Below, in pieces: positions 4,909-26,841 of a stretch of DNA of 64,000 nt. Position 1 is the first letter of the stretch. The number at the start of each line of letters is the position of its first letter. Both the position numbers and the translations under genes were made by a program. The notes under the pieces were generated by a model. It was given only the letters and a program-made list of their open reading frames with translations. It made no database searches and was not told the DNA's origin. The stretch is from Aureibaculum luteum (GTDB taxonomy: Bacteria; Bacteroidota; Bacteroidia; Flavobacteriales; Flavobacteriaceae), in NCBI RefSeq assembly GCF_003449015.1, contig NZ_QRGD01000007.1, forward strand, positions 62,001 through 126,000. Direction: 5' to 3'.

Positions 4909-6504
4909 TTATTGATAAACTCTAACATAATCTATTTCCATTGTATCTTGTGTAAACGCAGCATCTATATCACCACCTAAAGTACCACCCATAGCAATAT
5001 TGAGAATTAAAAAGAAGTCTGCATTGAACGGTAAATCGGCATTATTGGCTAATGTAGTATAAGGAACATTGTCAATTAAAACAATCACTTTATCGGTAGT
5101 CCATTCCAATGAATAGATATGAAAATCTGTGGTAGAAGTATTTTCAGTAGCAGTTTCACCATAAGAGGCATTGGTATTTGTTCCAGAATCTAACCAGTGA
5201 AATGTGCCAAGTATGGAATTTTTATCCCCACCTGTTTGCTCCATTATGTCAATTTCTCCACTTGCGGGCCAACCTATGGTTTCAAAATTTGCACCCAACA
5301 TCCAAATAGCAGGCCAAGTACCGGCAGAAGCAGGTAATTTAGCTCTTACATCTACGCGACCATAAGTGAAATCATACAGACCTTGTGATTTTAATCTTGC
5401 AGAGGTATACATAACTCCATCTTTTATGGCGTTAATTTTAAGAAAACCACCCTCAACAATTGCATTTGCAGATTCGTTGGTATAGGTTTGTACTTCATTA
5501 TTACCCCAGCCACCAGCACCAATATCATACCCCCATTTAGCAGAATCAGGAGATCCATCTGTATCAAATTCATCTGACCATGATAAATTATTAAATTCAG
5601 ACACAAATGCTGTTGGTTCTGACCCATCATCAGATGTTAAAACAAACCACCAATCAAATTCTCCATTACCATCAGTAGTTCTTAAAGTCATTTCACTAGC
5701 TGATCGAGCAAATATTTCGTATTTATGATTTCCTCCGGTGTAATAGCCCATAAAACCTAGACCGGTTAAGCTGAGTGTTTCTATACCTCCTGGTGCATTT
5801 AATGACCATCCTTCTGTATAATCACCATAGGAGTAATTCAAGATATCAGCACCATCAGCAGTTCCATCTCCAGGTCCTCCTATTTCATTTATAAGATTTT
5901 CTCGTCCAAAAACAGTCCCGTTAGTAATGTGTGTAAAAGTTCCATCTGCATTAAAAACATACCTATCGTCATACATACCAGTGCCAGCTTTAGTTTCAGC
6001 TCCTGCCGAAAACCATTCAGCAAATACACCACCTCCAACAGGTCCCAAACCAAAATGTGCACTTTCAGATTTTATTCTCCAAGTTTTGGAAGTATTACCA
6101 ACCAACATATCTAATAAATCAGCTGGAGCTTCGTATAAAGCAAGTACTTCTAATTGTACCGTTTTACTCGTTGAATTTCCACCAGTTCCATATGCAATTA
6201 CGGTTACGGTATACGTTTGTAGACCTGTAATGGCAAAATCATAAGTCATTTCTCCTTGTGGAGCGAGAGTTGTTTCTCCATTATAGACAAAATGGTAAGC
6301 TAAAGCATTGTCAGCATTCACTTTGAAATTAACTGTTCCGCTACCATCTCCGTTTGGATTATTGGCATCTATACCAACAACCTCTGTGGTTATCACAACA
6401 TTTGAAGGAGCAGTAATATCACCTACATCAGCGGTGTCATCTTGACAACTAGTTACTAATAATAAGCCTAAAAGACCTGTTATAAAATATTTAAATGTCT
6501 TCAT
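4909..6504 (-). CDS. Multidomain GH16 endo-beta-1,3-glucanase lipoprotein
   Basis: It is predicted to start laminarin breakdown at the cell surface. Its lipoprotein signal ends at Cys20 (LVTSC). Residues ~30-120 form a PKD/Ig-like domain. Residues ~125-300 form a separate Trp- and Gly-rich domain I cannot name. The GH16 catalytic domain spans ~303-531 with GEIDIME at 416-422 (E417 nucleophile, D419, E422 acid/base). It lies 12 bp after the glycan-binding protein gene, whose N-terminus also carries PKD-like domains. The middle domain could be a glycan-binding module. The substrate assignment rests on family and on the PUL content. Confidence 0.92.
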   Translation of the reverse strand: MKTFKYFITGLLGLLLVTSCQDDTADVGDITAPSNVVITTEVVGIDANNPNGDGSGTVNFKVNADNALAYHFVYNGETTLAPQGEMTYDFAITGLQTYTVTVIAYGTGGNSTSKTVQLEVLALYEAPADLLDMLVGNTSKTWRIKSESAHFGLGPVGGGVFAEWFSAGAETKAGTGMYDDRYVFNADGTFTHITNGTVFGRENLINEIGGPGDGTADGADILNYSYGDYTEGWSLNAPGGIETLSLTGLGFMGYYTGGNHKYEIFARSASEMTLRTTDGNGEFDWWFVLTSDDGSEPTAFVSEFNNLSWSDEFDTDGSPDSAKWGYDIGAGGWGNNEVQTYTNESANAIVEGGFLKINAIKDGVMYTSARLKSQGLYDFTYGRVDVRAKLPASAGTWPAIWMLGANFETIGWPASGEIDIMEQTGGDKNSILGTFHWLDSGTNTNASYGETATENTSTTDFHIYSLEWTTDKVIVLIDNVPYTTLANNADLPFNADFFLILNIAMGGTLGGDIDAAFTQDTMEIDYVRVYQ

Positions 6505-22482: not shown

Positions 22483-22513
22483 TTTGTTTATTAAATTTTT
22501 AATAATAGATTTG
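22483..22513 (+). promoter_or_regulatory. Promoter of the aromatic amino acid operon (TTTG-N19-TAGATTTG)
   Basis: A -33 box TTTG (22483-22486) and a -7 box TAGATTTG (22506-22513) are separated by 19 bp, an exact match to the Bacteroidota housekeeping consensus TTTG-N19-21-TAnnTTTG. Transcription would start near 22518, just ahead of the leader peptide start at 22532. The bases 22287-22482 back to the divergent sulfatase gene show no other clear signal. Confidence 0.75.
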
Positions 22514-22531
22514 TCTTTTCAAACAGAGAAA

Positions 22532-22621
22532 ATGAATTTATTTAACACTTGGCAAGCTTATTTCTACTTCTTTTATTTTTATAAGATGGAGCGAGGCTTT
22601 GTTGGTGTTTTAGAACAATAA
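22532..22621 (+). CDS. Aromatic leader peptide (29 aa) of an attenuator
   Basis: This short reading frame has 6 Phe, 4 Tyr and 1 Trp among 29 codons. Residues 10-17 are YFYFFYFY, an uninterrupted run of eight regulatory codons at 22559-22582, and Trp is at residue 7. The start lies ~14 bp after the predicted transcription start. A ribosome stalled in the run leaves 22592-22599 free. One that reaches the stop codon at 22619 covers or disrupts it. This is the layout of a pheL-type leader peptide, and the operon it precedes makes Phe and Tyr. Confidence 0.87.
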   Translation: MNLFNTWQAYFYFFYFYKMERGFVGVLEQ

Positions 22622-22650
22622 TTTATAAACACAATCATATATAAGCCTCG
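22592..22650 (+). promoter_or_regulatory. Antiterminator pairing of the attenuator
   Basis: CGAGGCTT at 22592-22599, inside the leader peptide frame, is complementary to AAGCCTCG at 22643-22650, which is also the 5' arm of the terminator. Eight base pairs plus a flanking G-U can form, so this pairing and the terminator exclude each other. Charged-tRNA shortage should favour this structure and read-through into pheA. Confidence 0.78.
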
Positions 22651-22669
22651 TTAATTCGAGGCTTTTTTT
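22643..22669 (+). terminator. Attenuator terminator upstream of pheA
   Basis: A perfect 8-bp stem AAGCCTCG / CGAGGCTT with loop TTAATT is followed by a run of T. It sits 21 bp after the leader peptide stop and 67 bp before the pheA start, with no complete gene needing a terminator there. Its 3' arm (22657-22664) is identical to the antiterminator segment at 22592-22599. Confidence 0.88.
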
Positions 22670-22735
22670 ATGAATTGATTTAAACTTTTTAAGGATAGAT
22701 TAAGTTTTAACCAATTCAATTGTAAATTTTTAAAC

Positions 22736-23572
22736 ATGAATATTGCTATTCAAGGTATTTTAGGCTCATTTCACCACATCGTGGCTCATCAATATTTTGG
22801 TGAAGATGTTAATTTAACAGAGTGCTTATCTTTTGATGTAATGCCTCAACTAATGAATTCAAATAAAGTAGACGGAGCGGTTATGGCCATTGAAAATACG
22901 TTAGCAGGTTCTATTTTATCAAATTATGCTTTGATTGATGAATTCGATTTAAGAATACATGGTGAAGTACATTTACCTATTCATCATAATTTAATGGCAT
23001 TAGAAGGGCAGTCATTATCAGACATAAAAGAAGTATGGTCGCACCCTATGGCTATATTACAATGTAGAAAATACTTTAGAGATTATCCAAATATTAAATT
23101 GGTTGAAGAAAGTGATACGGCTGAGGTTGCAAAACAAATACAAGATAAAAAGTTGATGGGTATTGCTGCTATTGCGAGTAATATGGCTGCTGAAATATAT
23201 AATTTGAATATCATTGAAAGTGAAATACAGACAAGGAAGCTAAACTATACCCGCTTTTTTATATTAAAGAAAAGCAATGGTAATATTCATACAACAAACG
23301 AAGTTAATAAAGCATCGTTACGCTTTGTAACACACCATCATACAGGAAGTTTGTCTGAGGTATTGCGTATTTTTGCAAACTTTAATATGAACCTGTCCAA
23401 AATACAATCGTTACCAATTATTGATAACCCTTGGAATTATTCTTTTTTTGCAGATGTTGTTTTTGATGATTATGAACAATTTCAGAAGGCAATTATAGAA
23501 GTTAAAAATAAAGTGAGTGATTTAAAAGTAATAGGAGAATACCAACAAAGTAAACGTAAGCATGACAGCTAA
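22736..23572 (+). CDS. pheA: Prephenate dehydratase
   Basis: It converts prephenate to phenylpyruvate, the committed step to phenylalanine. The catalytic domain (~1-180) has GAVMAIENTLAGSI near 38-50 and a TRFFILKK segment near 170. The ACT domain (~195-272) has HHTGSLSEVLRIFANFNMNLSKIQS, where phenylalanine would bind for feedback inhibition. It is a stand-alone dehydratase without a fused chorismate mutase; that activity is instead fused to the DAHP synthase three genes down. Its 3' end overlaps the aminotransferase start by 11 bp. An attenuator controls its 5' side. Confidence 0.94.
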   Translation: MNIAIQGILGSFHHIVAHQYFGEDVNLTECLSFDVMPQLMNSNKVDGAVMAIENTLAGSILSNYALIDEFDLRIHGEVHLPIHHNLMALEGQSLSDIKEVWSHPMAILQCRKYFRDYPNIKLVEESDTAEVAKQIQDKKLMGIAAIASNMAAEIYNLNIIESEIQTRKLNYTRFFILKKSNGNIHTTNEVNKASLRFVTHHHTGSLSEVLRIFANFNMNLSKIQSLPIIDNPWNYSFFADVVFDDYEQFQKAIIEVKNKVSDLKVIGEYQQSKRKHDS

Positions 23573-24716
23573 AGCCAACAGATTAAATAGCGTAAAGGAG
23601 TACTATTTTTCTCGTAAATTAAGGGAAGTTCGTCAGCTTAAGGCAGCTGGCAAACCTATAATTAATATTGGTATTGGGAGTCCTGATCTGGATCCACCAA
23701 TTACTGTAAGTAGAGCAATGCAGAATGCGTTGGAACAAAATAATATTCACGGTTACCAAAGTTATCAAGGTTTACCAGAGTTTAGAGCTGCCATTTCTAA
23801 TTTCTATAATAAATATTACGATGTTGATATAAACCCAGAGAATGAAATTTTGCCTTTAATGGGTTCCAAAGAAGGCATAATGCACATTTCGATGGCATTT
23901 TTAAATGTAGGTGATGAAGTTTTAATTCCAAATCCTGGTTATCCAACATATACTTCAGTTACTAATTTATTAGAAGCTAAACCTGTGTATTACGATTTGG
24001 TGGATGAAAACAATTGGTTACCTGATTTAGAAACCTTAGAAAAATCTGATTTGTCTAAAGTTAAGTTAATGTGGGTAAATTATCCTCATATGCCAACAGG
24101 TAAAAAGCCAACAAAAGAGTTGTTTAAAAACCTGATTGCCTTTGCGAAAAAGTATGATATTATTTTAATAAATGACAATCCATATAGTTTTATCTTAAAT
24201 GATAATCCGCTTAGTATTCTAAATATAGATGGAGCAAAAGAGGTGGCGTTAGAGCTAAATTCACTCAGTAAAACTTTTAATATGGCAGGTTGGCGTGTAG
24301 GTATGTTATTGGGTTCTGCTGAGCATATGAATACGGTTTTACAGGTAAAAAGTAATATGGATTCAGGAATGTTTTATGGCATTCAACAGGGAGCAATTGC
24401 AGCCTTACAATCGGATAATAGTTGGTTTAATAACCTAAATATTATTTATGAAAAACGTAGAAATATAGCTTGGAAGATTGCCGATGCGTTAGGTTGTACA
24501 TATGACAAGGATGCCTCTGGTTTGTTTGTTTGGGCAAAATTACCAATTGGATTAACAGCAGTGCAAACAGCAGATGATTTATTATATACCTATGATGTGT
24601 TTTTAGCTCCAGGTACTATTTTTGGAACTAATGGAGAAGGCTATATAAGACTTTCATTATGTGTTACAGAAGAAGTTTTAAGCGAAGTATTAAGTCGAAT
24701 ATTGAGAGCTAATTAA
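23562..24716 (+). CDS. Class I/II PLP aminotransferase (aromatic)
   Basis: It is predicted to transaminate phenylpyruvate and hydroxyphenylpyruvate, closing Phe and Tyr synthesis. The PLP lysine is in SLSKTFNMAGWRVG, with the preceding NDNPYSF (aspartate contacting the PLP ring nitrogen) and NPGYPTY blocks typical of fold type I. The length of 384 fits LL-DAP/aspartate-like aminotransferases. It starts inside the pheA 3' end and is followed directly by tyrA, so translation is probably coupled. Aromatic specificity comes from context, not from a diagnostic residue. Confidence 0.9.
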   Translation: MTAKANRLNSVKEYYFSRKLREVRQLKAAGKPIINIGIGSPDLDPPITVSRAMQNALEQNNIHGYQSYQGLPEFRAAISNFYNKYYDVDINPENEILPLMGSKEGIMHISMAFLNVGDEVLIPNPGYPTYTSVTNLLEAKPVYYDLVDENNWLPDLETLEKSDLSKVKLMWVNYPHMPTGKKPTKELFKNLIAFAKKYDIILINDNPYSFILNDNPLSILNIDGAKEVALELNSLSKTFNMAGWRVGMLLGSAEHMNTVLQVKSNMDSGMFYGIQQGAIAALQSDNSWFNNLNIIYEKRRNIAWKIADALGCTYDKDASGLFVWAKLPIGLTAVQTADDLLYTYDVFLAPGTIFGTNGEGYIRLSLCVTEEVLSEVLSRILRAN

Positions 24717-25568
24717 ATGGAAAAAGTAGTTGTTATCGGTTTAGGGTTAATAGGAGGTTCAATGGCAATTGACCTCAAGAAATATGGTAATTATCATATT
24801 ATTGGAATTGATAGAAATGTAAATCACACTAGTAAAGCGTTGGAATTGGGTATAATAGATGAAATTGGTACGGATTCAACTCTAGCTGAAGCAGATGTTG
24901 TAATTGTTGCTGTTCCTGCCGATGCTATACCGCCAGTTACAAAATCAGTTTTAGACCAAATTAATGAAAACACATTAGTTTTTGATGTTGGGTCAGTGAA
25001 AGGACAAGTTTGTAATCAGGTCAAAGAACATCCCAATAGAAAGAATTATGTCGCAGCCCACCCTATTGCTGGTACTGAGTTTTCAGGTCCAGAAGCAGCA
25101 TTTAGTGGTTTGTTTACCAATAAGATTAATATAATTTGTGAAAAAAAGTTATCCGATAAAAAAATATTAGAAAAAGCATTACAAATTTTTGATAAATTAG
25201 AAATGCGAACCACTTTTATGAAAGCTGACGAGCATGATAAACACATTGCTTATGTTTCGCATTTATCGCATATAAGTTCATTTATGTTGGGTAAAACGGT
25301 ACTAGAAATTGAGCCAAATGAAAAGAATATTTTTAATATGGCAGGGAGTGGATTTAGATCAACGGTTCGTTTGGCAAAAAGTTCACCCGCAATGTGGACA
25401 CCTATTTTCTTGCAAAACAAAGAGAACGTTTTAAAATCATTAACCGAGTATATTAAAAACCTAGAAACCTTTAAAAATAAGATTGAAGAGGGCTCAAATG
25501 AGGAGGTTTTTAATATTATGGAGAACACAAACAGAATTAAAAACATACTAGATGGTATTGTTAAGTAA
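24717..25568 (+). CDS. tyrA: Prephenate dehydrogenase
   Basis: It oxidises prephenate to 4-hydroxyphenylpyruvate for tyrosine. The N-terminal Rossmann motif is VVIGLGLIGGSMA (4-16). VFDVGSVKG (~88-96), the AAHPIAGTE block (~112-120) and the helical HLSHISSF dimerisation region follow. At 283 residues it is the short form without ACT or chorismate mutase domains, so feedback control may lie elsewhere. The ATG directly abuts the aminotransferase TAA. Confidence 0.94.
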   Translation: MEKVVVIGLGLIGGSMAIDLKKYGNYHIIGIDRNVNHTSKALELGIIDEIGTDSTLAEADVVIVAVPADAIPPVTKSVLDQINENTLVFDVGSVKGQVCNQVKEHPNRKNYVAAHPIAGTEFSGPEAAFSGLFTNKINIICEKKLSDKKILEKALQIFDKLEMRTTFMKADEHDKHIAYVSHLSHISSFMLGKTVLEIEPNEKNIFNMAGSGFRSTVRLAKSSPAMWTPIFLQNKENVLKSLTEYIKNLETFKNKIEEGSNEEVFNIMENTNRIKNILDGIVK

Positions 25569-25652: not shown

Positions 25653-26732
25653 ATGGAATCAGTAGACTTTTCAACATGGTTAAAGAAGATGGAGTTAAAC
25701 CATCCTTTAGTAATTGCCGGCCCATGTAGTGCAGAAACGGAAGAGCAAGTTTTAAAAATAGCTCATCAACTAAAAGAAACGGATGCTACTGTTTTTAGAG
25801 CAGGTATTTGGAAACCAAGAACACGTCCTGGAAATTTTGAAGGCAATGGTGTAAAAGCATTACCATGGATGGCCAAAGTAAAGGAAGAAACAGGAATGTT
25901 AACTACCGTTGAGGTGGCTAATGCAGAGCATGCTAAGTTAGCTTTAGAATTTGATATTGATATCATTTGGATTGGTGCAAGAACAACTGTAAATCCTTTT
26001 GCTGTACAAGAAATTGCAGATGCATTGGCAGGTACTGATAAAATAGTGTTGGTAAAAAATCCTATAAATCCTGATTTAGAATTGTGGATTGGTGCTATTG
26101 AGCGTTTACATACTATGGGAATTAAAAATTTAGGAGCTATTCATAGAGGTTTTTCTTCTTTTAAAAAGACGAAATATAGAAATACTCCACAATGGCAAAT
26201 TCCTATTGCATTAAAACAAAGATTTCCAACATTACCAATAATTAATGATCCTTCTCACATTTGTGGTGAGCGTGAAGGTATATTTGATGTATGTCAGACT
26301 TCTTTAGATTTAAAATTTGAAGGCTTAATGATAGAAACGCATTTTGACCCTGATAATGCTTGGAGTGATGCTAAACAACAAATTACACCAGCTAGATTAA
26401 ATGAAATTACTGAAGAGCTTAAAGTTCGTAAAGGGAGAGTCGAAGAAAAAGATTCTTTAGATAAATTAAATAATTTGAGAGCTCAAATCAATGTGTTAGA
26501 CAAACAATTAATTGATTTATTAGCCGATAGAATGGATGTTGTTGAAAACATTGGTAAAGTGAAAAAAGAAAGTAATGTTGCTATTTTACAACGTAGTCGA
26601 TGGTCAGAAGTTATGCAGGGAATGGTTAATGAAGGTAAACAAAACGGGCTTAGTGAAGATTTTATAGAAAAAATATTCAAATCTATCCATCAAGAGTCTA
26701 TCGAACATCAAGAGAAAATTGTAAATAGTTAG
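25653..26732 (+). CDS. aroG: Bifunctional DAHP synthase / chorismate mutase
   Basis: It joins the first shikimate reaction (PEP + erythrose-4-phosphate to DAHP) to chorismate mutase. Residues ~1-255 are a type I-beta DAHP synthase with VIAGPCSAET (19-28), RAGIWKPRTRPGNFEG (~48-63), and NDPSHICGE. Residues ~270-350 are an AroQ-type mutase: LRAQINVLDKQLIDLLADRM and a QRSRW stretch. In such fusions the mutase domain often serves as the allosteric prephenate sensor. It is the last gene of the operon, 84 bp after tyrA, and is followed by a strong terminator. Confidence 0.94.
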   Translation: MESVDFSTWLKKMELNHPLVIAGPCSAETEEQVLKIAHQLKETDATVFRAGIWKPRTRPGNFEGNGVKALPWMAKVKEETGMLTTVEVANAEHAKLALEFDIDIIWIGARTTVNPFAVQEIADALAGTDKIVLVKNPINPDLELWIGAIERLHTMGIKNLGAIHRGFSSFKKTKYRNTPQWQIPIALKQRFPTLPIINDPSHICGEREGIFDVCQTSLDLKFEGLMIETHFDPDNAWSDAKQQITPARLNEITEELKVRKGRVEEKDSLDKLNNLRAQINVLDKQLIDLLADRMDVVENIGKVKKESNVAILQRSRWSEVMQGMVNEGKQNGLSEDFIEKIFKSIHQESIEHQEKIVNS

Positions 26733-26765: not shown

Positions 26766-26801
26766 TCCTACATGGTTTTCAAAACTATGTGGGATTTTTT
26801 T
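26766..26801 (+). terminator. Terminator of the aromatic operon
   Basis: Arms TCCTACAT (26766-26773) and ATGTGGGA (26787-26794) pair with one G-U. The inner GTTTT/AAAAC extends the stem, and a run of T follows. It lies 33 bp after the aroG stop. Confidence 0.8.
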
Positions 26802-26841
26802 ATATTGGAGGGGTTATTTTTAGTATTTTTATTCGAAATTT

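Follow-up and report, generated by a model that had tools for sequence, protein, structure and literature searches.

Does the short reading frame in front of the aromatic amino acid operon of Aureibaculum luteum belong to a transcription attenuator, in which a translating ribosome decides whether the operon is read? The locus lies in a 64-kb window (assembly GCF_003449015.1, contig NZ_QRGD01000007.1, positions 62,001-126,000 of the forward strand), which is the whole stretch of DNA analysed here, and its features are collected in Table 1. We combined an inspection of this locus with a survey of pheA upstream regions in relatives, an analysis of arm pairing and covariation, and folding predictions for different positions of the ribosome.

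Elements of the leader and the operon behind it

The first-pass annotation had described a promoter, a leader ORF with eight aromatic codons, an 8-bp terminator and a second copy of one terminator arm, and a script run on the window found each of these to be correct to the base. The copied arm, CGAGGCTT, occurs at 22592-22599 inside the ORF and again at 22657-22664 as the 3' arm of the terminator. Of 200 dinucleotide shuffles of the leader, 198 fold less well than the native sequence (z -3.72). Among the other ATG frames of at most 54 codons in the 64-kb window, a single one has a Phe/Tyr run of at least five (at 6495, a run of five), and no terminator was found at that frame.

Table 1. Features of the A. 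luteum pheA leader and operon (positions within the 64-kb window)
Feature	Position	Strand	Basis
Bacteroidetes-type promoter, TTTG-N19-TAGATTTG	22483-22513	+	exact match (script)
Leader ORF, 29 codons plus TAA, MNLFNTWQAYFYFFYFYKMERGFVGVLEQ	22532-22621	+	script
Control codons TATTTCTACTTCTTTTATTTTTAT (YFYFFYFY), eight consecutive Phe/Tyr	22559-22582	+	script
Segment 2 (antiterminator 5' arm), within the ORF, able to pair with 22643-22652	22590-22599	+	duplex -15.8 kcal/mol
Segment 3, AAGCCTCG, terminator 5' arm; partner for segment 2 or segment 4	22643-22650	+	
Segment 4: terminator 3' arm (22657-22664) and T-run (22663-22669)	22657-22669	+	
pheA, prephenate dehydratase with ACT domain	22736-23572	+	PF00800, PF01842
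Class I/II aminotransferase, overlapping pheA by 11 nt	23562-24716	+	PF00155
tyrA, prephenate dehydrogenase	24717-25568	+	PF02153, PF20463; NF006307 above cut-off
DAHP synthase fused to chorismate mutase	25653-26732	+	PF00793, PF01817
Terminator-like hairpin with T-run, downstream of the operon's last gene	26766-26802	+	script

Pfam matches confirmed that the genes behind the leader are those of aromatic biosynthesis, as had been claimed. The class I/II aminotransferase is probably the aromatic one, a substrate that we assign from its context; its best NCBIfam matches, which fall below cut-off, are to LL-diaminopimelate aminotransferases.

The leader is very probably a ribosome-mediated attenuator of transcription, with charged tRNA-Phe and tRNA-Tyr as the signals that it senses. 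Transcription would start a few bases past 22513, and a ribosome would begin to translate the leader ORF. If Phe or Tyr were short, this ribosome would stall in the eight-codon run and segment 2, just beyond it, would stay free to pair with the emerging segment 3, so that no terminator would form and the operon would be read. If both amino acids were plentiful, the ribosome would pass through segment 2 to the stop codon. There it would either hold segment 2 or occupy the stretch between segments 2 and 3 during synthesis of segments 3 and 4, which would then fold into the terminator and end transcription.

Conservation of the leader and terminator before pheA

Alignment of the pheA leaders of relatives had been set as a test of this reading. 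It showed that both the run of aromatic codons and the copied arm are conserved within the genus, within the family and in many families of the class, and that the three arms change in coordination. A similar leader is present in 17 of 17 genomes of the genus. When all pheA loci were gathered, an aromatic leader (an ATG frame in which some stretch of nine residues has six or more aromatics, in upstreams of up to 300 nt) was found in 239 of 273 distinct pheA upstreams and in 17 of 1365 shuffled ones, counts that are not independent because the loci are related. Under a relaxed filter, a terminator follows 236 of these 239 leaders, compared with 21/1195 in shuffled sequences. The arrangement of leader and terminator before pheA is far beyond chance.

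The first rules and loci gave an aromatic leader in 164/196 upstreams, 22/1960 shuffled sequences and 2/196 upstreams read on the reverse strand, and a stricter terminator rule was passed by 149 of the 164 leaders and by 1/820 shuffles. The first terminator filter demanded at least four GC pairs, and its misses fell mainly in the genus Flavobacterium, where the hairpin AATCCTGAT/ATCAGGATT has three; the relaxed filter was adopted after inspection of six loci. In other genera of the family, all 80 further fetched loci have an aromatic leader under a looser rule (a run of at least four within 500 nt of pheA), the loci having been hand-picked from the list. A set of 80 named records, the best of 585 matches and biased to close kin, includes Flavobacterium, Maribacter, Arenibacter, Aquimarina, Polaribacter, Tenacibaculum, Winogradskyella and Kordia. 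The leader lies at most 300 nt from pheA in 78 of these 80 records and further upstream in the remaining two. Only 57 of the 78 pass the stricter terminator rule, owing to the Flavobacterium hairpin with its three GC pairs. The promoter is kept less widely: a search of the 90 nt before the leader ATG found TTTG-N17-22-TAnnTTTG in 33/149 leaders and 13/2980 shuffles, so most relatives are without the full motif.

Across relatives the aromatic run is kept and the remainder of the peptide is variable, as expected if sensing acts on the codons and not on the peptide. The distance from run to terminator is near-constant at 57 nt (5-95% range 49-71). Residues beside the run are also conserved in the genus (NTW before it, often KxKRGFVGV after it), which is what one would look for if the leader peptide arrested the ribosome via the exit tunnel, as TnaC or Erm leaders do, and sensed free Phe/Tyr or another ligand. 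However, these flanking residues vary across the family and class, where mainly the aromatic content is kept, and base pairing can account for those after the run, whose codons overlap segment 2. Leaders for His, Trp and Ile/Val, moreover, precede their cognate operons in the same genome. We therefore consider arrest by the peptide very unlikely.

Spread beyond the order and loci without a leader

Outside the order, 37 of the sampled genomes of the class have a PheA match, and the leader was found by the same rule at 22 of the 33 loci examined, in 13 families (hand-counted from tables). Our PheA query matched 43/149 genomes of the class overall, and absence elsewhere is therefore uninformative. 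By the rule, 34 of the 273 upstreams lack a leader, and seven of these 34 show one further upstream or below threshold. No leader was found at 6/6 fetched loci of group f2, whose PheA is 29-34% identical, or at 5/5 loci of group f12. Group f74, with genomes of 0.6 Mb, has kept pheA; a leader was not found at four of its five fetched loci (L190, L193-L195) and is doubtful at the fifth (L191). Loci L169 and L170 have a short aromatic run only.

Within the genus, a leader was not found at any of four second or tandem pheA copies (L021, L022, L025 and L028), and the three tandem upstream copies tested among them (L021, L022 and L028) showed none before them. Extra pheA paralogues stand in tandem upstream of the leader-controlled pheA at L321 (genome G015) and likewise in G014 and G016, and one extra copy is present in G006, G007 and G012. 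A second pheA at L320 (G001:C1, ~2.21 Mb), 82% identical, has its own leader and terminator; its frame continues past about residue 238 into unrelated sequence, for 580 codons in total.

Antiterminator pairing and covariation

The segment 2:3 duplex is better than the mean of shuffled spacers in 235/236 leaders (mean z -3.05; z <= -1.5 in 199). When arms were exchanged for those of leaders that differ in arm sequence, the native arms paired better than the median of these substitutes in 140/149 cases; the result is weaker with one leader per arm type, where the native partner is in the best tenth for only 16 of 27. Segments 2, 3 and 4 change together, as seen in the triplets CGAGGCTT/AAGCCTCG/CGAGGCTT, CGGGACT/AGTCCCG/CGGGACT, CAGGACT/AGTCCTG/CAGGACT and GGCGGGA/TCCCGCC/GGCGGGA.

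We also aligned ten leaders of the genus, nine of them distinct. The terminator is 100% paired in this alignment, with one pair changed on both sides and a covariation score reached by 4/500 shuffles. The 8-bp core of the antiterminator is paired in 97.2% of cells, again with one pair changed on both sides, and column 115 varies in step with both of its partners. The antiterminator covariation score was reached by 46/500 shuffles, however, so the genus alone says little for this helix. Family-wide, the sequences argue strongly for an antiterminator that shares the 5' arm of the terminator and is conserved by compensatory change, whereas those of the genus by themselves argue for it weakly.

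A structured leader region such as this one could also be a translation-independent RNA switch (a riboswitch, a T-box or a protein-bound attenuator) with an incidental ORF. No Rfam family, T-box and riboswitches included, matched anywhere in the window at gathering threshold, a search that covers known families. The best match at a relaxed threshold was Phe_leader (RF01859) at 22619-22671, the terminator part, with 25.6 bits against a cut-off of 55, so that by score the leader is not a member of that family. The sole further pairing tested, between segments 1 and 2, has no excess over shuffles (mean z 0.06; 61/149 below zero, 12 at z <= -1.5) and a slight one for native over swapped partners (89/149). 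We regard a switch of this kind as extremely improbable. A 1:2 protector helix was rejected, on the comparison with shuffles, as a general part of the attenuator; the MFE structure of the A. luteum leader does contain a helix of the 1:2 type.

Ribosome position and predicted folding

We assumed a ribosome footprint of about 30 nt, with 16 nt on the upstream side of the first A-site base and 14 nt on the downstream side. On this assumption, a ribosome stalled in the middle of the run leaves segment 2 free, the segment starting a median of 9 nt past the ribosome edge and 4 nt past it in A. luteum. Once the ribosome has reached the stop codon, the share of segment 2 that it covers has a median of 88% across 149 leaders (quartiles 60-100%). 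In A. luteum the same footprint, placed on the stop codon (22619), spans ~22603-22632 and hence 0% of 22592-22599, and the value is 0% throughout loci L001-L004. The first-pass annotation had proposed both that a stalled ribosome leaves 22592-22599 free and that one at the stop codon reaches it; for a footprint of ~30 nt, the first part holds and the second does not. With 18 nt separating segment 2 from the A. luteum stop codon, the stopped ribosome would instead stand between segments 2 and 3. This spacing is the exception in an attenuator interpretation that is otherwise supported, both proposed conservation tests having come out in its favour.

Before segment 4 is made, the predicted probability of the antiterminator is 0.77 with a stalled ribosome, 0.64 in free RNA and 0 with the ribosome at the stop codon (medians, 149 leaders); the corresponding values for A. 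luteum are 0.99, 0.99 and 0. For full-length RNA at equilibrium, the terminator is predicted with a median probability of 0.93 with a stalled ribosome (quartiles 0.56-0.98), 0.97 in free RNA and 0.97 with the ribosome at the stop codon, and in A. luteum with 0.54 stalled versus 0.96 free. Since the terminator is favoured at equilibrium even when the ribosome is stalled, a switch of the proposed kind must be kinetic. That the terminator is, by median, thermodynamically favoured in every modelled state would also suit a terminator that is constitutive and leaky, with no regulation and an ORF that goes unused. Such a terminator, however, fails to account for aromatic leaders in 239/273 upstreams and for a leader arm that changes in step with the terminator, and we give it hardly any credence.

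Relation to known attenuators

The proteobacterial pheA attenuator combines a leader peptide rich in codons for the product with alternative antiterminator and terminator structures, and the enterobacterial trp, his and ilv leader attenuators have runs of cognate codons and terminators. A 1:2 protector helix characterizes the trp type and is not universal among ribosome-mediated attenuators. The A. luteum leader resembles the proteobacterial pheA attenuator (RF01859) in its product-codon peptide, its alternative structures and its target gene. It differs in that its run mixes Phe and Tyr codons, before an operon that makes both amino acids, and in that the leaders described here have no general 1:2 helix and place segment 2 within the ORF, with the A. 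luteum stop codon beyond it. The enterobacterial trp, his and ilv attenuators have counterparts in the A. luteum genome; the in-ORF segment 2 and the absence of a general 1:2 helix, which differ from the enterobacterial design, come from tests on the pheA leaders.

In Bacteroidota, a 2021 transcriptome paper on Flavobacterium psychrophilum presents strong indications that leader-peptide attenuation operates in front of operons for amino acids, and describes 5' elements upstream of pheA and hisG that are conserved in other genera and without Rfam hits (PMC9723704). Its pheA element agrees with ours in family, gene, proposed attenuation, conservation in other genera and lack of an Rfam hit, whereas the passages of that paper considered here give neither a leader sequence nor pairing arms and mention no covariation and no occurrence outside the family, points that its supplement may cover. 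Short ORFs resembling leaders of this type are mentioned in Bacteroides thetaiotaomicron (PMC7366714), leader genes across many phyla are treated in PMC4833913, which cites a 2010 comparative study (Lopatovskaya 2010), and the available sections of PMC8305728 discuss his attenuation for enterobacteria only. None of the titles and passages that we surveyed in the open-access literature reports an experimental test of leader-peptide attenuation in Bacteroidota. The kind of system is known, and the pheA case was foreshadowed by the F. psychrophilum paper, which limits its novelty; what is added here to the literature surveyed is the extent of the system, the covariation of its arms and its in-ORF geometry.

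Classical attenuation works only with the ribosome close behind RNA polymerase. Conserved in the family and in many families of a class described as being without Shine-Dalgarno sequences (PMC6847099), the leader could serve as a native reporter for transcription-translation coupling in Bacteroidota. The survey also provides about 240 candidate leader peptides, together with an element that may control aromatic amino acid operons across this phylum.

Other amino acid leaders

The A. luteum genome has a His leader, MTLNHIHHHFHTGFQAR, before hisG (L222), a Trp leader, MNTILNHTWWWNSRNTNS, before trpE (L240) and an Ile/Val-rich leader, MKTRNLINNTILNVVIIQWQ, before ilvD (L315), each followed by a terminator. 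In relatives, candidate leaders were found at 16/20 his loci, 21/21 scanned trp loci and, with a stricter threshold, 7/18 scanned ilv loci, all of them raw counts. The region before thrA, inspected in three genomes, showed no threonine leader, and 21 homoserine dehydrogenase loci gave one unconvincing match, with gene starts that may fall outside the scanned flank.

It is possible, if rather doubtful, that the Bacteroidia have an ancient and general set of attenuators of their own (for Phe/Tyr, Trp, His and Ile/Val) with a reduced design, in which segment 2 lies in the leader ORF, a general 1:2 helix is absent and the moving ribosome alone decides. Such a design would invert the default, an untranslated leader reading through instead of terminating, in keeping with the free-RNA antiterminator median given above. 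It would also imply tight coupling of transcription and translation in a phylum whose messages are without Shine-Dalgarno sequences.

Some loci have tandem attenuator-like units, each with a cognate-codon ORF and a terminator: L294, L295 and L309 (ilvD), L251 (trpE), and L165 and L212 (pheA). The units are arranged as if read in series, and their 2:3 pairing ranges from strong to weak (z -6.9 to -0.1).
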